Shown: positions 1,937 through 40,855 of the stretch, piece after piece
Layout: each line of letters begins with the position of its first letter
Numbering within the stretch: position 1 is the first letter of the stretch
Assembly: GCA_028867075.1 (NCBI GenBank)
Contig: JAGWGZ010000006.1
Span: 1-41,314 of the forward strand
Length of the DNA: 41,314 nt
Source of the DNA: Nanobdellota archaeon
GTDB taxonomy: Archaea; Nanobdellota; Nanobdellia; Pacearchaeales; GW2011-AR1
Reading direction: 5' to 3'
Notes under the pieces: generated by a model
What the model was told of the DNA's origin: nothing
The model's input: only the letters and a program-made list of their open reading frames with translations
Database searches by the model: none
Made by a program: the position numbers and the translations under genes

Positions 1937-3979
1937 TTATAATACGATAACATTCGCCTGGCTTCCAATATAGATTGTCTGATTAGCATAAAGAGATCCC
2001 AAGTCAGATGCCTGCAAGGTTGCATTTACTGTAAAATTACCTGAAATATCAGTGCTTATTTTTGTTACACCATTATCGTTTAAATGAGCAACCCATATAT
2101 TTGTTCCATTTATTGCTATACTAAAATATCTTCCTCCCCCCACATCACTATAATTTGTCATTGTTCCATCTGGAGCAACCTTAGTTATACTATTATCTCC
2201 CTTATTAACTGTCCACATGTTGGTGCCATCAAATGCAATTGCAATAGGATTTACTCCTGTTCCGGTATAGTTTGTCATTGTTCCTGAAGGAGTTATTTTT
2301 GTAACTGAGTTACTCCCATAGTTTGCGGTCCACATGTTGGTGCCATCAAATGCGATTGAATAAGGAGTATCCCCTGTTCCCGTTGCATATAATAAAATCC
2401 CTCCACTAGATGAAACCTTAGTCACACTATCACTAAGAGAATTAGTAATCCACATGTTGGTGCCATCAAATGCGATTGCAAGACCACCTAACCCTGAAGA
2501 CATAGCATAAGATGTTGATGTTCCATCTGGGGCTACTTTTACCACAGCACTTTGATGAGATACGAGAGCAGATGTCGCAATCCACATGTTGGTTCCGTCA
2601 AATGCAATTCCTCGTGGGGTGGTAGTCAGAGAAGAATAATTTGTCATAGTCCCGGTTGGAGTAATTTTCGTGACGCTATTGCTATTTGCATTTGCTGTCC
2701 ACATGTTAGTGCCGTCAAAAGCGATTGAATAAGGAGTAGCTCCCGTTCCAGAATAAGTAGTCATTGTTCCGGTTGGAGTTATTTTTGTAACTGAGTTACT
2801 GGCAAGATTAGTAACCCATATATTTGTTCCATCAGATGCAATTGCCTGCGGACTATCTCCTGTTCCAAAATAATTAGTCATGAATGGTCCTGTATATGAA
2901 AGGTTTCCTGTTCCCATATTGCAGTCTACCTTAAGGATGCAGTTTGCAGGCATAGCAACATCCCAATTTTGATTCAGTCCAGAACAAAAACAATAAGTAT
3001 ACCCATCAAATGCAATTGCCTGGGGATACCTTCCAGTCCCAGTATAATTGGTCATTGTTCCACTAGGGGCTATTTTAGTTACACTACCAGAGCTATTAAT
3101 CCCCCCATCATAATTTGCGGTCCACATGTTGGTTCCGTCAAATGCGATTGCATCAGGATAGAAACCTGTTCCGGTGTATGTTATCATTGTTCCTGCGGGG
3201 GTTATTTTTGTAACTGAGTTACCCATATAATTTGCGGTCCACATGTTGGTGCCGTCAAATGCAATTGCATAGGGTTGATTTCCTGTCCCAGTATAATTGG
3301 TCATTGTTCCTGCGGGGGTTATTTTTGTAACACTATTGCCCAATTTATTTGCAGTCCACATGTTGGTGCCGTCAAATGCAATTGCAACCGGTTGAAAACC
3401 AGTTTCTGTGTATGTTGTCATTGTCCCATCTGGAGCTATTTTTGTAACACTATTATCACCCTGATTCGCTGTCCACATGTTGGTGCCGTCAAATGCAATT
3501 GCAACAGGGGTTGCTCCTGTTCCGGTGTAATTTGTCATCACACCTCCTGAAGAAATTTTCGTGACGCTATTGCTATTTGCATTTGCTGTCCACATGTTGG
3601 TGCCGTCAAATGCAATTGCACTAGGACCTACTCCTGTTCCCGTATAAGTTGTCGTTATTCCTGCGGGGGTTATTTTTGTAACACTGTGACCAATATCATT
3701 TACAATCCACATGTTTGTTCCATCAGAAGCTATACCATAGGGAGTATTTGCTCCAGAAATGGTATAATTAGTAATTACACCTGCCGGGGTTATTTTTGAA
3801 ACGCCAGAATCTATACTATTCGCAGTCCACATATTTGCGGTTCCTGGAGCATTTCCATTTAGAGTCAAAGGTATAAGCGCTTTTGTAAACGGCAGAAAGA
3901 ATAAAAAAGACATAAATAAAATCAGCAAAAAGATTCCTGCGCCAGAATAAACCCCCTTATGTTTTCTTAAGCCGAGCAT
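1937..3979 (-). CDS. Secreted beta-propeller-like repeat protein (streptogramin-lyase-like repeats)
   Basis: The protein has 680 residues, with a membrane-inserting signal at about 14-36. The rest is about 15 repeats of roughly 39 residues with consensus AFDGTNMWTANxxxNSVTKI, then TPxGTMTNYTGTGxxPxAI. Each repeat has the four-strand look of a propeller blade, similar to Vgb/SMP-30/NHL-type repeats. Fifteen units would fit two seven-bladed propellers plus a terminal unit. One unit near residues 330-385 is divergent, longer and carries four cysteines. The catalytic residues of streptogramin lyase cannot be confirmed, so a binding or scaffold role at the surface is more likely than enzyme activity. 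The start overlaps the end of the long fibre gene by 13 bp, so the two are probably co-transcribed. Confidence 0.7.
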   Translation of the reverse strand: MLGLRKHKGVYSGAGIFLLILFMSFLFFLPFTKALIPLTLNGNAPGTANMWTANSIDSGVSKITPAGVITNYTISGANTPYGIASDGTNMWIVNDIGHSVTKITPAGITTTYTGTGVGPSAIAFDGTNMWTANANSNSVTKISSGGVMTNYTGTGATPVAIAFDGTNMWTANQGDNSVTKIAPDGTMTTYTETGFQPVAIAFDGTNMWTANKLGNSVTKITPAGTMTNYTGTGNQPYAIAFDGTNMWTANYMGNSVTKITPAGTMITYTGTGFYPDAIAFDGTNMWTANYDGGINSSGSVTKIAPSGTMTNYTGTGRYPQAIAFDGYTYCFCSGLNQNWDVAMPANCILKVDCNMGTGNLSYTGPFMTNYFGTGDSPQAIASDGTNIWVTNLASNSVTKITPTGTMTTYSGTGATPYSIAFDGTNMWTANANSNSVTKITPTGTMTNYSSLTTTPRGIAFDGTNMWIATSALVSHQSAVVKVAPDGTSTSYAMSSGLGGLAIAFDGTNMWITNSLSDSVTKVSSSGGILLYATGTGDTPYSIAFDGTNMWTANYGSNSVTKITPSGTMTNYTGTGVNPIAIAFDGTNMWTVNKGDNSITKVAPDGTMTNYSDVGGGRYFSIAINGTNIWVAHLNDNGVTKISTDISGNFTVNATLQASDLGSLYANQTIYIGSQANVIVL
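2220..3900. repeat. In-gene tandem repeat, about 117-bp period
   Basis: A nearly invariant block (for example CCACATGTTGGTGCCGTCAA on the plus strand) recurs about every 117-120 bp through the propeller gene. Most blocks are identical or differ at one or two bases, while the segments between them vary. This is coding repetition, not a CRISPR array: the period matches 39 codons and the reading frame is kept. Confidence 0.85.
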
Positions 3980-6900
3980 ATCTTTCCCCCTGAATTAAAG
4001 ATTATGCAGGTGTTTGCCGCATTTCCGACTGTAAGATTGCTTGTTATATTTGCATCCCCTATAACATTCAATTTATTCTTCGGGCTCGTTGTTCCTATTC
4101 CGACATAACCATTGGAATTTATAACCATCCTATAAGCACTATTCTTGTTATCATAAAATGCTAAATCGCCCGGAGCTCCGGAACTGCCAAGGGGCTCGGA
4201 TGAGATTGTATAATTTGTGTCTGGTGTCCCAAACTTTATTCCTGCCGCATTTGTCCCATTGGTTATTGTTGTTATGTAAGCCAAAACATTTGAGCTTCCA
4301 TTAATTTGCAGGTTATTTAATGGGTTCGTTGTTCCTATTCCTACATTGCCTGTGTTTTGTATTGCTAGAACGCCTGTTGTCGGCTGAGTTGCTCCGGTAT
4401 TAAAGATTAATGTTCCTCCACTAACATCAGAAGTAGTTTCCCACCATCTATTTCCCGTACCTGTTTGTAAATTTAAAGCGGCAGGGGTTCCAGCAGAAGT
4501 ATCGTATAATGATAAAACGGCGGATGGCGAAGATGTCCCTATTCCAATATTGCTTCCACTCTGATAAATATTAGAATTTCCAAGACCTGTTCCGGAACTC
4601 CACAGAGGAACATAGTTAGTTGTCCCGCTGCCAGTAGGAACATTTCCTCCATTCAAACTAAGGGTGTTTCCCACCTGAAGATAGCCTGTGCTAGAATAAT
4701 AAAGTCTCATTGTTCCGCCTGCATCAAGCAGCTGTATTCCTCCTCTAAAATTCCCTCCGGAGTATCCGTAAGACAACCATGTTGCGCTCGTGCTTGTTCC
4801 CATCTCAGTTCTGTAACCTCCTGCGACAGGAGTGTTTCCCCAAGATGTTGAAGGCCCGTAAGAATTTACTGTGCTGCTTGCATTAATCGTTCCTGAAACA
4901 CTTAATGTATTCGAAGGCGAGGTTGTTCCTATTCCTATTCCTGTATCTGTAACAGACATGATTGGATTTCCGAAATTTGAAAGGCTTCCCAAACCTGTTG
5001 CACTTGATTCATAGAAATTCAAAGCCCCGTTTGATGCCTGAATTAAAGATGGAGAAACAGAAGGGTGCGTGTTCACATAATCCGTCCCATTTCCTTTGGT
5101 GAACCACCCTATATAACCATAACCAGCGCTATGCCCCATGTCAAACCAAGAATTCGTATCAAGAGAAAAGTCAGGATTTTGGGGGCTTCCTGCTGCATTG
5201 CCGGCAATCTGAAGAAGTGATGATGGAGAAGTTGTTCCTATTCCGACGTTGCCTGCATTTGTTATAATCATTCTTAATGTTGAGGGAGAGCCGGTATAAA
5301 ATGTCTGGTTTCCGTTGTTTGTTATGAGATTCAGGCTTCCGTTTAGGTTATTATTTACATACAAATCGTCCGCAGTTGAGCTTCCATATCCTACATATCC
5401 CTTTCTTCCTGTTGAGTCATAGAAAGACAGATAGTTGTTTCCTGTCCCCCTTGCTCCTGCCTGCAACTTCAGGATTTCTCCTCCCGAGCCAGTGATATTT
5501 GCTGTCCCAACAACATTTAGCGTATTTTGGGGAGAGGAAGTTCCTATTCCGACGTTGCCCGCGGCAGTTATGTGCAGCCTGTCCTGCATTGACGTGTCGG
5601 AAGCCTGCCTTGTGCTGAATATCAAATCACCGCCTGTTCCGAGAGGAGATGATTGGAAGCTTGTATATTTCGCGGTTATGGAAGCGAGCATGAAAGACAA
5701 ATTTGTCCCATATCCTGCTGAAGGCGAGAAAGTGTTGAAGTCTATTTCTCCCAATGCCCCATAGCTGCTCGTGTCCCTCGTTGTTATCAGAATATCCGCT
5801 TTCTGCCCTATTGTCCTGTTAAGGTCGTTATTTCCCGAATCAATATTGACATATCCATTGGGCATTGTGTTTGCAGTGGTATAAATGCCTACACTACCAC
5901 CAGAAGAGCCGTTAATAATAAACTGTGCGGGGTAGTTTGCAGTATTCCCGGAGAATATAAAATCGTTTCCGAGAGTCCTGAATACCATGTCCCCCAAGGT
6001 TGCAGACGTGCTCCACTGATTGCTGCCCATTGCCATCCCTATTGCGCCAAGAGCAGTTGGGGTCTGGTTGTAAAAGCTTATTCCGGGCGAGATTGGTCCC
6101 GAAGTGCTTCCCTGAATTGCTATTGCTGACCCGGATTGAGATGGCTTCACCGTGAGTATTTCCTGAGGCGAAGTTGTCCCAATGCCGACACTTCCTCCTG
6201 CAGCCTGAAGAGATATATTGTAAGCGATCGCGGTGTCAGTTCTTCCTCCCTGTATCCAAGAATTGCCGGTCCCATCAACACCCGCATATAATCCATAGGC
6301 ATTGCTTGCAGCCGCTGTAACTCCAAAACCTATGCCTGCTGTGGAGCCTAAGGTCATTAAGGTCGAAGCTGCCGGTACTTGTGTTTGGAATCTCACCTGC
6401 GGGCTTGTTGTTCCTATTCCAACATAGCCTGTTCCATTTTGGAATGTTATATAATTGCTATTCCCCATATCAAAATAAATCGGTCTGTATCCAGAAGCAC
6501 TTCGGTCATATGATACAATATATGCACCTGTAGGTCCAATTGCATTAGTAGACGGATTTATTTCAAGCCCCCCTGCACCCCCATTACTAACAACAAATTT
6601 GTTTTGCGGTGTTGTTGTTCCCACACCCATATTCCCCATGACATACAGATTACTAGGAATATTTATTCCCGCTGTTGAATAGTTTTTAAGATAATCCACT
6701 GTTATGTTTGTTGCAGAGAGGACAACATTTCCGAGGTAAGATGTTCCTGTGACATTCAAATCCCCCACGACATTCAATGTATTCTTCGGGGTTACAGTGT
6801 TTATTCCCACATAATTACTAGTTCCGCTGCCGACAGTTAAGACAGCTCCGTTTGGGTAACCTCCCGAATTTGCTATATAAAACTGCCCGCCGGTTCCTGT

Positions 6901-9333
6901 TGCATTAGCCCCTATATTCCATTGCCTAACTGAAGTTGTCAAATCAGGATTAAAAGTCATAAGGGTTGACGCATTATTGTTTTGGGCTACAACAGCAAAT
7001 CGGGTGTTATTTCCTGAAGCAAATCCGCTAATCGCTCCATTTGCGGCATAAATTGTTCCGGTTATGTTTGCATCACCCACGACATTCAATGTATTCTTGG
7101 GTGAAGTTGTTCCTATTCCTACATTTCCTGAATTATCAATATAAACTTTGGATGTTCCGATTCCTGAACCGCCTGAAAAAAAGTTATATGTTCCATTTTG
7201 GACTATCAATGCGGCTGTATTAGCACTGCCGGGGGTCACCCATGCAGTACCATTATAATAGACATTGCTTCCTAGATAAACACTCGGCTTGCCACCGCTA
7301 CCAGTAGCATAAGAACCGACAAATCCGTTTGGTTTCCCTGTACCCATACTCCCGATGGCAATAACGCTTGGGTCTGCTTCTCCAAATGATGCAGCAATCC
7401 CGCCTGTTGTCCCGTTTACATCAAGGTCATAGTTCGGTGATGTTGTTCCTATTCCGACGTTGCCTGTCGAAGAGTTAATATAAAACAAACTTGTTGTGGA
7501 TTGATTATAAAACCCGAAATGGTTGTTATCAGCCTGCATTATGGAATTAAATGTAACAATATTTCCCTGCCCGGGGTTGCTTGGGGCAATAGCAATCTGA
7601 ATTCCCCCACTGTATCCTGTGATTTGAGAAGGTATAACTGAAGGGTGAGTTGCAATATAATTTGTTCCATTTGCTTTCGCAAACCAGTTTATAGAACCAT
7701 ATCCTGAGCTATGCGCAAGGGTAAACCAATCACTCGTATCCAAAGAAACAACGGGTTGGGGGGCTCCTGCCAGACCTCCAGATATTTGCAATAATGAACT
7801 CGGCGTTGATGTTCCTATTCCAACATTCCAACTAAGATTAGAGGGATAAACATAACTTCCGGACTGATTCCAAACTCCGTTGCTTGAGCCTGCCCCTAAA
7901 TTACCATAGATACTTCCAGTAACATTCAAATCTCCGACGACATTCAAGGTATTCTGTGGGGTTACAGTGTTTATTCCCACATTTCCTGACGGAAGAATTG
8001 TTAATTTTTGAGTAGTATAAAAAGAACTCCCTTGCCCGATGAAGAATTCGCTGTTTGTGCTTCCAAGCCCCATAGCCCATTGTGCACCTGTTGAATTAGC
8101 AAACACTAACTGGGAGCGGGTTGTTGAATTGGGGCTCCGAATAAATACATTTGTTGCAGCACCCGAAGAATTAATATCAAGAGTTCCGACTGGTGAAGTT
8201 GTTCCTATTCCTACATTTCCTGTTGAAGTTATCCTCATCTTTTCAGAGAATAATCCTGCATTTATGTTCTCAAATACCAAGTCTGCACTCGTCGCTCCTG
8301 CATTATGGTTCGTGTTTATTGTCCCTATTCTTCCCTCTGTCACACTTGTTCCTGCTGCATCAGTAGTTGAAAATGCCAGCATGCTTCCTGTATTATTTGT
8401 GGAATTTGAATTTTGTATCTTCAATCCTGATAATATGTTAGCCTGGGTTGTTGTTGAATCACTAAAATTAATGTGAAGAGGATTTGCAGGACTTGCTGTT
8501 CCTATCCCTACGTTTCCTGATTTAACAATTAATCCGTAAGAACCTCCGGCAATATCAATTTCATTCCCGCTATTGTTATTATAAAATATTCCTCCCCAAT
8601 AAGTCCCAGATGCCGCTTCTCCAAGAATGCCGTGCGTTGAGGTCCCCCCTATCCCAGCTATTGCTACTGAATTTTGAAATTGTGAAGCAGGGGTCGTTCC
8701 CTGAATAACTGTCAAAGCATTTTTTGGCGAACTTGTTCCTATTCCGATATATCCGCTCGTGGAATTTATGAAAAACTGCGACTCATTTCCTCCGAGTGCT
8801 CCATTGCTGTTGAATTGTATTGCTCCGTTGTTTCCCCCTGCAGTAACGCTTGAACCGGAAATCCCTGTCAGATATTGCCCATTTCCAAACAAATATGCGG
8901 CAGTGAAGTTATAAGCGCTGATATTTATGTTTCCGTTTGAAAGAACTCCCCCCGAGGGGACATGCCCTGCATAGAATGCATACGGAACCTGGGCAAGCTT
9001 TGACGTGTCAATCAAAACTCCATCCCTATAATAGCAAAGCCAGTATTGCTGGCTGTAATCGCTAAGGATTACATTGTCGAGATAGTAAGAAATGATTCCC
9101 CTTGAGTCAGTTGTCAGCGTCGTGGAATTTGAATAAACAATGTTTGAGACGTTGCAATCAGAGCTTGAAGAGATGTTAAATACAAAGGCAAACGTCCCTG
9201 TCTCAATGCTTCCGTTTGTATAAGTGACCTGAATGTTCAGGTGAAGACTGCTGTAAGCAGAGACAGCATATATGCTTCCTGATAAAGCAGCTATAAAAAA
9301 TAAAACGCTCAAAAAAAATACACCCTTTTTCAT
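3967..9333 (-). CDS. Giant secreted fibre/adhesin protein with GIGTTSP repeats
   Basis: The protein has 1788 residues. It begins with a signal peptide (about 1-24), followed by a beta domain to about residue 125 that ends AQVPYAFYAG, matching the YAF(R/Y)A motif that closes N-terminal domains of bacterial tail-fibre-like proteins. The body carries about 18 copies of the motif GNVGIGTTSPxNxLxVxG, found in phage tail-fibre and long surface-fibre proteins, often trimeric. The C-terminus NTCIIFNSGGKICSA carries two cysteines that could crosslink chains. No intramolecular chaperone (endosialidase-type) domain is visible. It is followed by the propeller gene with a 13-bp overlap. The likely role is adhesion or host/partner contact; the ligand is unknown. 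A TATA-like TTTATAAA about 70 bp upstream (near 9400) may drive it. Confidence 0.75.
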   Translation of the reverse strand: MKKGVFFLSVLFFIAALSGSIYAVSAYSSLHLNIQVTYTNGSIETGTFAFVFNISSSSDCNVSNIVYSNSTTLTTDSRGIISYYLDNVILSDYSQQYWLCYYRDGVLIDTSKLAQVPYAFYAGHVPSGGVLSNGNINISAYNFTAAYLFGNGQYLTGISGSSVTAGGNNGAIQFNSNGALGGNESQFFINSTSGYIGIGTSSPKNALTVIQGTTPASQFQNSVAIAGIGGTSTHGILGEAASGTYWGGIFYNNNSGNEIDIAGGSYGLIVKSGNVGIGTASPANPLHINFSDSTTTQANILSGLKIQNSNSTNNTGSMLAFSTTDAAGTSVTEGRIGTINTNHNAGATSADLVFENINAGLFSEKMRITSTGNVGIGTTSPVGTLDINSSGAATNVFIRSPNSTTRSQLVFANSTGAQWAMGLGSTNSEFFIGQGSSFYTTQKLTILPSGNVGINTVTPQNTLNVVGDLNVTGSIYGNLGAGSSNGVWNQSGSYVYPSNLSWNVGIGTSTPSSLLQISGGLAGAPQPVVSLDTSDWFTLAHSSGYGSINWFAKANGTNYIATHPSVIPSQITGYSGGIQIAIAPSNPGQGNIVTFNSIMQADNNHFGFYNQSTTSLFYINSSTGNVGIGTTSPNYDLDVNGTTGGIAASFGEADPSVIAIGSMGTGKPNGFVGSYATGSGGKPSVYLGSNVYYNGTAWVTPGSANTAALIVQNGTYNFFSGGSGIGTSKVYIDNSGNVGIGTTSPKNTLNVVGDANITGTIYAANGAISGFASGNNTRFAVVAQNNNASTLMTFNPDLTTSVRQWNIGANATGTGGQFYIANSGGYPNGAVLTVGSGTSNYVGINTVTPKNTLNVVGDLNVTGTSYLGNVVLSATNITVDYLKNYSTAGINIPSNLYVMGNMGVGTTTPQNKFVVSNGGAGGLEINPSTNAIGPTGAYIVSYDRSASGYRPIYFDMGNSNYITFQNGTGYVGIGTTSPQVRFQTQVPAASTLMTLGSTAGIGFGVTAAASNAYGLYAGVDGTGNSWIQGGRTDTAIAYNISLQAAGGSVGIGTTSPQEILTVKPSQSGSAIAIQGSTSGPISPGISFYNQTPTALGAIGMAMGSNQWSTSATLGDMVFRTLGNDFIFSGNTANYPAQFIINGSSGGSVGIYTTANTMPNGYVNIDSGNNDLNRTIGQKADILITTRDTSSYGALGEIDFNTFSPSAGYGTNLSFMLASITAKYTSFQSSPLGTGGDLIFSTRQASDTSMQDRLHITAAGNVGIGTSSPQNTLNVVGTANITGSGGEILKLQAGARGTGNNYLSFYDSTGRKGYVGYGSSTADDLYVNNNLNGSLNLITNNGNQTFYTGSPSTLRMIITNAGNVGIGTTSPSSLLQIAGNAAGSPQNPDFSLDTNSWFDMGHSAGYGYIGWFTKGNGTDYVNTHPSVSPSLIQASNGALNFYESSATGLGSLSNFGNPIMSVTDTGIGIGTTSPSNTLSVSGTINASSTVNSYGPSTSWGNTPVAGGYRTEMGTSTSATWLSYGYSGGNFRGGIQLLDAGGTMRLYYSSTGYLQVGNTLSLNGGNVPTGSGTTNYVPLWSSGTGLGNSNIYQSGSNIGIGTSSPSAVLSLYDTSAGTPAALNLQTGTGNRWWETTSDVSGGTLIFNTGATQPTTGVLAIQNTGNVGIGTTNPLNNLQINGSSNVLAYITTITNGTNAAGIKFGTPDTNYTISSEPLGSSGAPGDLAFYDNKNSAYRMVINSNGYVGIGTTSPKNKLNVIGDANITSNLTVGNAANTCIIFNSGGKICSA

Positions 9334-11172: not shown

Positions 11173-11185
11173 GAGCCTGTAGCTC
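11173..11185 (+). repeat. 5' echo of tRNA-Ile (13 nt)
   Basis: GAGCCTGTAGCTC is identical to the first 13 nt of the tRNA-Ile gene that starts at 11245, 72 bp downstream. The identity covers the 5' acceptor strand, positions 8-9 and the 5' D-stem strand and then stops. The intervening DNA holds two possible stem-loops (TGAGA...TCTCA at about 11187-11212; CCGC-ACA-GCGG at about 11214-11224). Confidence 0.8.
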
Positions 11186-11244: not shown

Positions 11245-11359
11245 GAGCCTGTAGCTCAGCCTGGCTAGAGCACTGCTCTGATACATGAAAGGATTTCATG
11301 TGCTAAATCCGGTGGATTCAGGAAGGCAGGGGTCCGAGGTTCAAATCCTCGCAGGCTCA
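11245..11359 (+). tRNA. tRNA-Ile(GAT), intron at 37/38
   Basis: The acceptor strands GAGCCTG (11245-11251) and CAGGCTC (11352-11358) pair fully, with discriminator A at 11359 and no encoded CCA. The D-stem is GCTC/GAGC, the anticodon stem CTGCT/GGCAG, the loop CTGATA before the intron gives anticodon GAT, and the T-arm is CGAGG-TTCAAAT-CCTCG. A 40-nt intron at 11284-11323 follows position 37, the canonical archaeal site for the splicing endonuclease. The spliced length is 75 nt. It lies upstream of disA in the same orientation. Confidence 0.93.
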
Positions 11360-14796: not shown

Positions 14797-14818
14797 ATAG
14801 CCTTGCCAGGATTCGAAC
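14797..14818 (-). repeat. 3' echo of tRNA-Gln (22 nt)
   Basis: Positions 14797-14818 are identical to 14864-14885. On the minus strand this copies the T-loop, the 3' T-stem strand, the complete 3' acceptor strand and the discriminator of tRNA-Gln. It lies 67 bp from the original, downstream of the gene in transcription direction. The T-stem 5' strand is absent, so it cannot fold as tRNA. Confidence 0.85.
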
Positions 14819-14864
14819 TGAAAACCACCTGCGGGTTTTCTATCCTGCAACCATCGAATCCACA

Positions 14865-15009
14865 TAGCCTTGCCAGGATTCGAACCTGGGTCACAGACTC
14901 TCTCCACAGAACACAGAGATGCGGAACCATCCCGGAATCAATCCGGAGGTGCGGAACCGTTTGGGTTCTGGCCAGAGGCCTGTATACTTGACCGCTGTAC
15001 TACAAGGCT
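14865..15009 (-). tRNA. tRNA-Gln(CTG), intron at 37/38
   Basis: On the minus strand the acceptor AGCCTTG (15009-15003) pairs with CAAGGCT (14872-14866), with discriminator A. The D-stem is GTAC/GTAT, the anticodon stem CAGGC/GTCTG, the loop CTCTGG before the intron gives anticodon CTG, and the T-arm is CCAGG-TTCGAAT-CCTGG. The intron is 72 nt (14900-14971). The intron contains one full and one partial copy of the dispersed hairpin repeat. A TATA-like TTTTTATACC is centred near 15037, 27 bp before the 5' end. The spliced length is 73 nt. Confidence 0.92.
14900..14971 (-). other. tRNA-Gln intron carrying dispersed repeat copies
   Basis: The 72-nt intron holds CAGAACC-CAAAC-GGTTCCGCACCTCC (14945-14971 region) and a second partial copy, GGTTCCGCATCTCTG, at 14915-14928. 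Thus the intron body is built largely from the repeat found at several intergenic sites in this window. Confidence 0.75.
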
Positions 15010-15061
15010 ATGTAAACTTTAGAGATAAATGGTATAAAAAGGTTTCATCGAGAAAAATTTT

Positions 15062-16548: not shown

Positions 16549-16695
16549 TGCCCCTGCCGAGATTCGAACTCGGGTCACGGCCGTTCTCCAAACTTCAAAG
16601 ATTGGAGTAGTTGCATTGAGATGCTAGACTTCATCCTTTCGACAAGGCGAAATCACTTGAGAGGGCCGCATTCTTGGCCTCTGAACTACGGGGGC
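16549..16695 (-). tRNA. tRNA-Glu(CTC), intron at 37/38
   Basis: On the minus strand the acceptor GCCCCCG (16695-16689) pairs with CAGGGGC (16556-16550) with one C6-A67 mismatch; discriminator A. The D-stem is GTTC/GAAT, the anticodon stem CGGCC/GGCCG, the loop CTCTCA + C gives anticodon CTC, and the T-arm is CCGAG-TTCGAAT-CTCGG. The intron is 74 nt (16584-16657). A TATA-like CATAAATTC (16718-16726) is centred 27 bp before the 5' end. The spliced length is 73 nt. Confidence 0.92.
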
Positions 16696-16730
16696 TTCCT
16701 GCGCCCGGATTCAGGTCGAATTTATGAGGC

Positions 16731-16745
16731 CTGAACTACGGGGGC
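16731..16745 (-). repeat. 5' echo of tRNA-Glu (15 nt)
   Basis: Minus-strand GCCCCCGTAGTTCAG repeats the first 15 nt of tRNA-Glu, 50 bp upstream of the gene. The copy lies just upstream of the tRNA TATA box, so it is probably outside the tRNA transcript. It is followed upstream by a GC-rich inverted repeat CCCTATG (16766-16772) / CATAGGG (16786-16792). Confidence 0.8.
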
Positions 16746-16842
16746 TCACTCGCTTCGCTCGTTCACCCTATGTCTCCTTCGTCGCCATAGGGCTTTACTG
16801 CTCAAAACCTAAAAGAACATTCATTTAAAAGAATTGCGTATT

Positions 16843-23899: not shown

Positions 23900-23976
23900 C
23901 GCAAGAAATGGACAAAATTATATTTAAGCATTTATATGCTTCAAAATAGAAAATTGAATATATCTGTTTAAGAAAA

Positions 23977-24124
23977 AGCCTCAGCTGAGGATTGAACTCA
24001 GGACCTCGACATCTTTGGGATTTCCGGGAGGGAAAGTCAAGCGAACGGCTTTTTGCGATGCGTATGCGTAATCGCGTGTCGTCGCATACCAATGTCGCGC
24101 TCTTACCGACTGAGCTACTGAGGC
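23977..24124 (-). tRNA. tRNA-Thr(GGT), intron at 37/38
   Basis: On the minus strand the acceptor GCCTCAG (24124-24118) pairs with CTGAGGC (23984-23978); discriminator T (23977), as in other archaeal tRNA-Thr. The D-stem is GCTC/GAGC, the anticodon stem CGACA/TGTCG, the loop TTGGTA before the intron gives anticodon GGT, the variable loop is AGGTC, and the T-arm is CTGAG-TTCAATC-CTCAG. The intron is 74 nt (24013-24086). A TATA-like ATTTTTAAAA at about 24151-24160 is roughly 30 bp before the 5' end. The spliced length is 74 nt. Confidence 0.92.
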
Positions 24125-24178
24125 TTGATGAAAGTAGCGAGTTAATCTCCTTTTAAAAATTTAAGGGAAAGCTAAGCG

Positions 24179-24204
24179 AAGCAGAACCAAAGGTTCCGCA
24201 CCTC
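24179..24204 (+). repeat. Dispersed hairpin repeat, copy B
   Basis: A 26-bp block identical (in inverted orientation) to 40832-40857. The core GCAGAACC-AAA-GGTTCCGC can form an 8-bp stem with one G-T pair, followed by ACCTC. It lies upstream of tRNA-Thr, between the gene and its 5' echo. Confidence 0.85.
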
Positions 24205-24231: not shown

Positions 24232-24246
24232 CTGAGCTACTGAGGC
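24232..24246 (-). repeat. 5' echo of tRNA-Thr (15 nt)
   Basis: Minus-strand GCCTCAGTAGCTCAG repeats the first 15 nt of tRNA-Thr, 122 bp upstream of the gene and beyond its TATA-like box. The match ends at the start of the D-loop, as for the tRNA-Glu echo. Confidence 0.8.
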
Positions 24247-28096: not shown

Positions 28097-28189
28097 TTCA
28101 TTTTAAATTAACAGGAGGTGTGGAATCTTCATTTTAAATTAATGGAAAGTGGGAAATTTTCATTTTAAATTAATAGGAGGTGTGGAACC
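28097..28189 (-). repeat. 31-bp tandem repeat (3 units) forming minicistrons before minD-like gene
   Basis: Units start at 28097, 28128 and 28159, each beginning TTCATTTTAAATTAA on the plus strand; a diverged fourth occurrence (28067-28081) covers the minD-like start codon. On the minus strand each unit gives TTAATTTAAAATGAA. Reading from those ATGs gives MKISHFPLI-stop, MKIPHLLLI-stop and MKIFCPY-stop. The first two stops are followed by one nucleotide and the next ATG; the third stop is two codons before the real ATG. Units 1 and 3 carry GGAGGTGTGGAA, the left arm of the dispersed hairpin repeat. Confidence 0.85.
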
Positions 28190-28201
28190 TCGGTTCTACT
28201 T
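28176..28201 (-). repeat. Dispersed hairpin repeat, copy C
   Basis: Plus strand GGAGGTGTGGAACCTCGG followed by TTCTACTT; on the minus strand AAGTAGAACC-GA-GGTTCCACACCTCC. It forms an 8-bp stem and includes the TAG stop codon (28196-28198) of the 146-residue gene. Confidence 0.8.
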
Positions 28202-40575: not shown

Positions 40576-40855
40576 GTTTGATAGGATAAACTTGCGCTGA
40601 ACTCGATATTAAGAAAAAACCTCTAAAGAATAATTATGCGAATTTGGGTGGATTTTTGTCAGTTAATATATTTGTTATCAATAACGAGCGACGCGAACTA
40701 TTCTTTTTGGGTCGGATGGGTGGATAGGAAAGCTATCGCTAAAGAATATTTCTAAAAGAAAAGTAAAAATTAAAAATTAAATTAAAAAATAAAAAATTTA
40801 GAGAAAAATTACAACTCCTTCTTAATTATCGGAGGTGCGGAACCTTTGGTTCTGC
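40576..40855. other. Intergenic region with AT-rich tract and repeat copy D
   Basis: No gene is seen. It holds a strongly A/T-rich stretch (about 40755-40810), a short palindrome-like AGCTATCGCT patch near 40731, and the dispersed hairpin repeat at its right end (copy D). Confidence 0.5.

Follow-up and report, generated by a model that had tools for sequence, protein, structure and literature searches.

Integrative elements that attach at tRNA genes target the ends of these genes and duplicate the targeted end beyond the inserted DNA, and a T-loop-type identity block is characteristic of them. The arrangements described here share the targeted tRNA end and the far-side copy, but differ in their gaps of 35–216 nt, in the preference of core-bearing units for 5' ends, in a segment antisense to the matching gene and in that no integrase was found in the host genome. 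REP/MITE-like palindromic mini-elements are mobilised by IS200/IS605 or RAYT. Like them, the present elements are short and non-coding, form an imperfect hairpin with an unpaired base and are patchy and low in copy number. Here, in contrast, the hairpin is flanked by a copy of a gene end and by the antisense of that copy, and the Y1 transposase is absent from five unit-bearing genomes and present in two others (G008 and G015).

Structured 5' leader RNAs resemble the present units in having a conserved, covarying stem-loop at likely transcript starts; the units differ in that the 5' strand copies the gene's own start and in that no Rfam family was found for them in 12 loci. A review of archaeal BHB introns and split tRNA genes describes extra sequence in tRNA genes that is similar across different tRNAs (PMC4033280). 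In the units reported here, by contrast, a complete and intact tRNA follows the insert, and the copy at locus L010 is probably not an exon. No element family examined in this study accounts for the pattern, and we recognised no description of it in the literature searched, which lay mostly outside subscription journals.

The tRNA-Glu unit and its genomic context

The window, that is, the whole 41,314-nt stretch of DNA analysed, is contig C9 of a 575-kb genome in 26 contigs with an estimated completeness of 88.7% (G000, the host genome). A neighbouring gene was used to find its nearest named relatives, which are bins assigned to Pacearchaeota and Nanoarchaeota. The host genome contains 31 RF00005 matches and encodes an RNase P RNA. 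ARAGORN, run with introns, identifies tRNA-Ile, tRNA-Gln (typed Pyl), tRNA-Glu and tRNA-Thr genes in the window; its mistypings are Gln as Pyl and one Ile of G003 as Ser. An Rfam search of the window returned tRNA matches only. The features used below are as follows.

11173–11185, plus strand: 13-nt copy of the 5' end of tRNA-Ile(GAT), 59 nt before the gene (11245–11359)
14797–14818, minus strand: 22-nt copy of the 3' end of tRNA-Gln/Pyl (ARAGORN type; gene 14864–15010), 45 nt downstream
16549–16695, minus strand: tRNA-Glu(CTC) gene (ARAGORN with introns; Rfam RF00005, 43.1 bits)
16583–16656, minus strand: 74-nt intron of tRNA-Glu(CTC)
16696–16730, minus strand: 35-nt insert between the tRNA-Glu copy and the gene
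16701–16715, minus strand: S', CCTGAATCCGGGCGC, imperfect pairing with the tRNA-Glu copy in the predicted fold
16731–16746, minus strand: S, copy of the tRNA-Glu 5' end (nt -1 to 15), AGCCCCCGTAGTTCAG, an exact direct repeat
16747–16794, minus strand: outer second insert of 48 nt, starting with AGCCC and containing the hairpin CCCTATG...CATAGGG
16823–16830, minus strand: possible original TATA box of the tRNA-Glu gene, TTTTAAAT, from alignment with relatives
24232–24246, minus strand: 15-nt copy of the 5' end of tRNA-Thr(GGT), 106 nt before the gene (23976–24125)

An initial annotation of this DNA had reported a copy of the tRNA-Glu 5' end 50 bp upstream of the gene. The copy is indeed there: the window contains exactly two occurrences of GCCCCCGTAGTTCAG, at 16681–16695 and 16731–16745 on the minus strand, and one further common base makes the repeat 16 nt long. 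Together, the copy and the 35-nt insert have a predicted folding energy of -17.9 kcal/mol; relative to shuffled inserts this corresponds to z -2.4 and p 0.03. The number of pairs between copy and insert gives p 0.065 against shuffles, and an ungapped antisense search of this unit was not significant (p 0.48). The unit is without the conserved hairpin core found at other genes and is assigned to the same family by architecture only. Beyond the copy, the outer 48-nt insert is 94% identical to a stretch upstream of another tRNA gene (L028) and is not present in the syntenic loci of two relatives, G014 and G015.

Two other observations concern the window at large. On the minus strand at 1937–9333, two long ORFs with repetitive sequence (680 and 1788 aa) are surface-protein-like by eye. 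A small element, AACCAAAGGTTCCGCACCTC, lies on both strands, at 14946–14965 (minus), 24185–24204 (plus), 28177–28196 (minus) and 40832–40851 (minus), and these sites include the inside of a tRNA intron and the inside of the insert upstream of tRNA-Thr; five matches with at most three mismatches compare with 0.14 expected.

Gene-end copies recur in the host genome and its relatives

The tRNA-Ile and tRNA-Thr genes had been cited as showing the same pattern, and both copies are real (13 nt with a gap of 59 nt and 15 nt with a gap of 106 nt, respectively). The insert downstream of tRNA-Gln contains the antisense segment GGATTCGA close to its start. In the host genome, 5' copies are present at 7 of 33 distinct filtered tRNAs, namely Lys, Ser(GCT), Ser(GGA), Glu(TTC), Ile, Glu(CTC) and Thr. 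Matches at 3' ends occur there at Lys, Gln and one Leu, the last of which matches its neighbouring tRNA.

A wider comparison covered 188 tRNA genes from 19 genomes, after removal of duplicates and of tRNAs less than 120 nt from a locus edge. A 5'-end match with a score of at least 11 was found within 250 nt upstream at 18 of the 188 genes, compared with 1 of 564 controls in which tRNA ends were paired with the flanks of tRNAs of other types. Seventeen of these upstream matches start at gene base 1 or 2, and the remaining one (L023) is a neighbouring tRNA. Matches to 3' ends were found downstream of 26 of the 188 genes and in 11 of 564 controls; the 3' counts include matches to neighbouring tRNAs (L009 and L163 among the 25 units considered below). 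An anchored search, built so that a match can start only at one of the first three bases, was compared with same-genome controls and gave 17/188 against 13/920 for 5' ends and 21/188 against 8/920 for 3' ends. Chance is thereby ruled out, as the initial annotation had argued from the length of one match, and the recurrence that it suspected extends over the host genome and the 19-genome set of tRNA genes and flanks. The copy at tRNA-Glu is part of a real and wider pattern. The rates given here are not family-wide, because genomes and loci were chosen by relatedness and by what was retrieved.

The distribution of copies is patchy. They are found at the 5' end of 6 of 15 tRNAs in G017 and at the 3' end of 10 of 19 in G018, and none was found at 24 tRNAs of the congener G001, at 23 tRNAs of G012 or at the six tRNAs within 55 named loci around a PEP-synthase-like gene. 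Copy and gene are separated by 35–216 nt. The copies are 12–30 nt long at tRNA 5' ends and 7–11 nt long at seven ORF starts in which the ATG is copied, so that no fixed duplication length was found. Two loci of G017 have more elaborate arrangements. At L148 (tRNA-Met), the 5' copy GGCTCCA pairs by eye with the 3' copy TGGAGCC better than with the enclosed gene, as if a full tRNA were nested within the ends of another. Downstream of L075 (tRNA-Leu TAA) lie three stacked segments, each ending in a form of the tRNA 3' end, in an array-like arrangement.

Relatives carry empty sites and copies mostly track their genes

The tRNA-Glu genes of G014 and G015 lie downstream of the same coding sequence as that of the window, and in the alignment the copy in the window lines up with the start of their genes. 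It is preceded there by an insert of about 50 nt that is not in G014 or G015. Within genus g95, a Ser(GCT) unit with the same core is found in G169 and G171 and a unit with another core in G173; G170 is without a unit and is a candidate empty site of presumed synteny. The Ser(TGA) gene has a unit in G172 and an empty site in G169, and the insert is missing from the Thr gene of G001, which was judged syntenic by eye. The earlier suggestion of a target-site duplication is thus supported by relatives with empty sites and a single copy, and it is at odds with a duplication length that varies.

Copies resemble the gene that they precede, even at positions that vary between genes, and in most units the two are identical. 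This was assessed in 21 hand-typed units from five isotypes; the count excludes isotypes represented by one or two units, all Ile, Phe and Met units and the divergent L324. At the variable positions, copy and own gene agree in 18 of 18 cases at Ser positions 5–7 and in 12 of 12 at Leu positions 5, 6, 7 and 10. The exceptions are Ser position 4 (5/6), Ser position 15 (4/6) and Glu position 7 (5/6), and the Glu copies of G163 and G017 also differ at position 5, which is invariant in all genes. The copies of the Met unit (L148) and of L324 have several mismatches to their genes. The likeness between copy and gene could reflect recent duplication, gene conversion or selection.

Locus L010 bears on the relation of the copy to the mature tRNA. 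Its copy has A4 and its gene C4; A4 pairs with the insert in the predicted fold, and C4 with the 3' strand of the acceptor. Since only the C4 of the gene pairs with the acceptor, the copy is unlikely to supply the mature 5' end or to act as an exon. A non-canonical D-arm intron is an unlikely interpretation of this locus.

Promoter position, folding and antisense segments

Units are usually arranged in the order promoter, S (the copy of the gene start), hairpin, a segment that pairs with S, spacer and complete gene. Promoters were scored with the matrix AAAAAATTTAAA, located about 37 nt before the gene and learned from tRNAs without copies. Of 17 testable 5' units, 14 have a TATA box before the copy, spaced as a promoter would be; a box with that spacing to the gene itself is found in 8 of 18 units, and 51 of 169 control positions (30%) also pass the cut-off. 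The copy therefore usually lies at the likely transcript start, and the earlier conclusion for tRNA-Glu that the copy is outside the transcript does not generalise. For example, the score upstream of the tRNA-Ile copy is 8.3, and at L028, which has the element similar to the outer 48-nt insert, the score is 8.9 upstream of the element and 0.4 at the gene.

The tRNA-Glu gene of the window is less clear in this respect. The TATA-like site at 16718–16726, taken in the initial annotation for the promoter between copy and gene, is weak: the best score in the promoter window at the gene is 1.6 bits, compared with a median of 5.5 and a 20th percentile of 2.28 among copy-less tRNAs. The corresponding score upstream of the copy is -1.3, and neither position passes the cut-off. 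Further upstream, beyond both the copy and the 48-nt insert, TTTTAAAT aligns with the TATA boxes of the syntenic tRNA-Glu genes in G014 and G015 and scores 2.2, just below the cut-off of 2.28; it may be the original TATA box of this gene.

Compared with shuffled inserts, the combined copy and insert have a better predicted fold in 16 of 18 5' units (mean z -3.0) and 12 of 25 3' units (mean z -1.8). The count of pairs formed between copy and insert exceeds that of shuffles at the 0.05 level in none of the 18 5' units and in one of the 25 3' units. The inserts at 3' ends are richer in antisense: a segment antisense to the 3' part of the unit's own tRNA is significant in 15 of 25 3' inserts, and one antisense to the 5' part in only 3 of 18 5' inserts by the ungapped search. 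Antisense matches of at least 9 occur in 12 of 25 3' inserts, in 2 of 18 5' inserts and in none of 149 copy-less tRNAs, a zero that is little below the expectation from shuffled flanks (about 1.2 and 0.4). By eye, no box C/D or H/ACA motifs were seen in the units.

Some units share a covarying hairpin core

Some inserts contain a core, the A-GGC-U-stem, an imperfect hairpin with an unpaired T/U. In the helix common to ten units, 93% of cells are paired and 8 of 13 pairs show two-sided changes; sliding the helix partners lowers the pairing to at most 57%. The ten sequences were picked by eye, which biases the covariation test towards structure. A test restricted to Ser units gave a modest result: pairing in 81.5% of cells, two-sided changes in 3 of 11 pairs, and 9 of 500 shuffles scoring as high. 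Cores also look alike by eye within an isotype across genera, as seen for Ser in G000, G160, G169, G171 and G172, for Leu in G017 and G071, and for Ile in G003 and G018. Rfam 15 covariance models, searched in 12 loci at E up to 1, gave only tRNA, RNase P and 5S, with no match to the core.

A model of the core (R1) has 57 matches in 29 of 181 family genomes and 22 of 87 genera, with all ten training units among them; each of the 57 sites was inspected. At tRNA 5' ends, on the same strand, there are 22 matches, of which ten are the training units, leaving 12 of 47 as independent. A repeat between the head of the match and downstream DNA measures at least 8 nt in all 22 and at least 10 nt in 20. 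Three matches lie at tRNA 3' ends on the opposite strand (Cys, Thr and Arg), and the Arg match (L225) has no copy. R1 missed 9 of the 18 5' units, including the tRNA-Glu unit of the window, and gave one match at E <0.01 in 408 kb around a protein gene. The proposal that the intervening segments might contain a shared element thus holds for some tRNAs, by virtue of the hairpin core, which the tRNA-Glu unit of the window lacks.

The remaining 32 of the 57 matches are beside neither tRNA end. Twenty-one of them have the ATG of a reading frame 9–64 nt downstream, and in 7 of the 32 the longest repeat, 7–11 nt in length, spans this ATG (L207, L226, L227, L326, L334, L336 and L341). Repeats of 7 or 8 nt at the non-tRNA matches are near background, with 39% of control positions having a 7-nt and 15% an 8-nt repeat; because repeats of this length are common in AT-rich DNA, the tentative argument for the short ORF-start repeats is their position at the ATG. 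The other non-tRNA matches are weak or belong to a repeat specific to G142. Core matches precede a gene in two genomes that we take to encode an LSm-like protein, and a gene that we read by eye as EF-1alpha. Many units thus fit the earlier view that tRNA 5' regions are the target, to which tRNA 3' ends and the starts of some protein genes have to be added. By eye, the ATG at the head of the core opens a short frame ending just before the ORF start at L326, L334, L215 and L341. A locus of G142 (L328, contig C60) has an 81-nt tandem repeat with a weak core-like hairpin and no tRNA detected beside it.

Mobilising enzymes

Cas1 (PF01867) was not found in the host genome (88.7% complete) or in G014 and G017, which also have units, and is present in 2 of 37 genomes, G036 and the unit-bearing G018. 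A search for tyrosine integrases (PF00589) at E up to 1 gave none in the host genome, with 14 of 14 controls positive. The Y1 transposase (PF01797) is absent from G000, G003, G014, G017 and G018, all of which have units, and present in 12 of 37 genomes, including G008 with one core match and G015 with a 3' copy. A CRISPR-like or casposon origin, suggested by several gaps of 35–46 nt, was set aside because Cas1 is absent from unit-bearing G000, G014 and G017; an IS200/IS605 origin was set aside on the distribution of the Y1 transposase. Nanoarchaeum is not known to have RNase P and has leaderless tRNAs. The corresponding idea for the present organism, a missing RNase P combined with leaderless tRNAs, is rejected by the presence of the RNase P RNA.

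Origin of the units

We favour a non-autonomous hairpin element that was inserted at transcript starts and tRNA ends with duplication of the target and was kept as a structured leader, a reading to which we give a probability of about 45%. According to this model, short non-coding hairpin elements would insert at the first transcript bases in Pacearchaeota, above all in tRNA genes, with some apparently leaderless protein genes and tRNA 3' ends as further targets. The step itself would be an insertion of DNA, probably guided by transcript starts or gene ends. It would leave the original promoter and S upstream (12–30 nt at tRNAs, about 7–11 nt at ORFs), followed by the element and then by the complete gene, whose own S would make the arrangement resemble a target-site duplication. 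The element and the S before it would form one hairpin (S–core–S'), and the pre-tRNA leader would therefore fold on itself and leave the tRNA free. This leader would be transcribed, and its removal would fall to RNase P; as the RNase P RNA is present, it could be removed normally. A difficulty for an insertion is S', which is tailored to each gene and is not explained by plain insertion.

The main rival is a functional leader RNA, in which the S–core–S' hairpin would be conserved because it regulates in cis, or stabilises, the transcripts of tRNA and translation genes; S' would pair with either copy or gene as a switch, and selection would keep the copy equal to the gene. The covariation and low folding energies, the likeness of cores within an isotype across genera as judged by eye, the tracking of gene by copy and the core matches before the presumed LSm-like gene (two genomes) and EF-1alpha gene all agree with such a role. 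We nevertheless consider it doubtful, since the core is patchy (29/181 genomes), has no match in the congener G001 and is absent or replaced between congeners, since a core lying in reverse at a tRNA 3' end cannot serve that tRNA as 5' leader, and since the Ser-only helix test is modest. Fold-back template switching at stalled forks, which would produce a sense–antisense–sense triplication of a gene end with no mobile element involved, accounts for the S–S'–S order at both ends and for the antisense of the tRNA's own T-arm in many 3' inserts. The tRNA-Glu unit of the window is close to this simple form, and no mobilising enzyme was found in the host genome. Template switching does not, however, predict a core shared between different tRNAs and genera, or that 17 of 18 upstream matches should begin at the first or second nt of the gene, and we regard it as improbable.

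Two further origins have still less in their favour. The units might be what is left of elements that integrated by way of a tyrosine integrase, a casposon or a CRISPR-type system and used tRNA ends as attachment sites: 7 of the 10 downstream matches of G018 are 18–19 nt long, reaching from around C56 to the 3' end of the tRNA, and G018 has Cas1. We judge this very unlikely given that 35 of 37 genomes, including unit-bearing G000, G014 and G017, have no Cas1, that G000 has no Phage_integrase match and that gaps of 35–216 nt are too short for such genes. A tandem duplicate of the tRNA gene whose body was lost by deletion would explain the common 5' end and the few upstream bases sometimes shared with it (G018 Thr, G017 Leu), and is hardly credible in view of relatives with empty sites, a shared core unmatched by tRNA models and copied heads before protein genes as well. 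The empty sites and the core that matches no tRNA model also reject the variant raised in the initial annotation, a second complete tRNA lost by deletion.

Implications

Beyond the preferred mechanism, the units may, somewhat tentatively, represent a new class of mini-elements, which would enter genes at transcription starts or tRNA ends, copy the start of the host gene and build a gene-specific hairpin with a conserved apical motif. The resulting leaders would be tailored to their genes, and the element would be either a mobile element targeted to starts or a self-matching RNA switch. Transfer RNA genes are among the most conserved genes, and a precise insertion at the first base together with a copy of the gene end would be unexpected there. 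A covarying hairpin without an Rfam match, present at the tRNA genes and apparently at translation genes of archaea with small genomes, raises the questions of what enzyme or process might target transcript starts and how precursors carrying a decoy 5' end would be processed.
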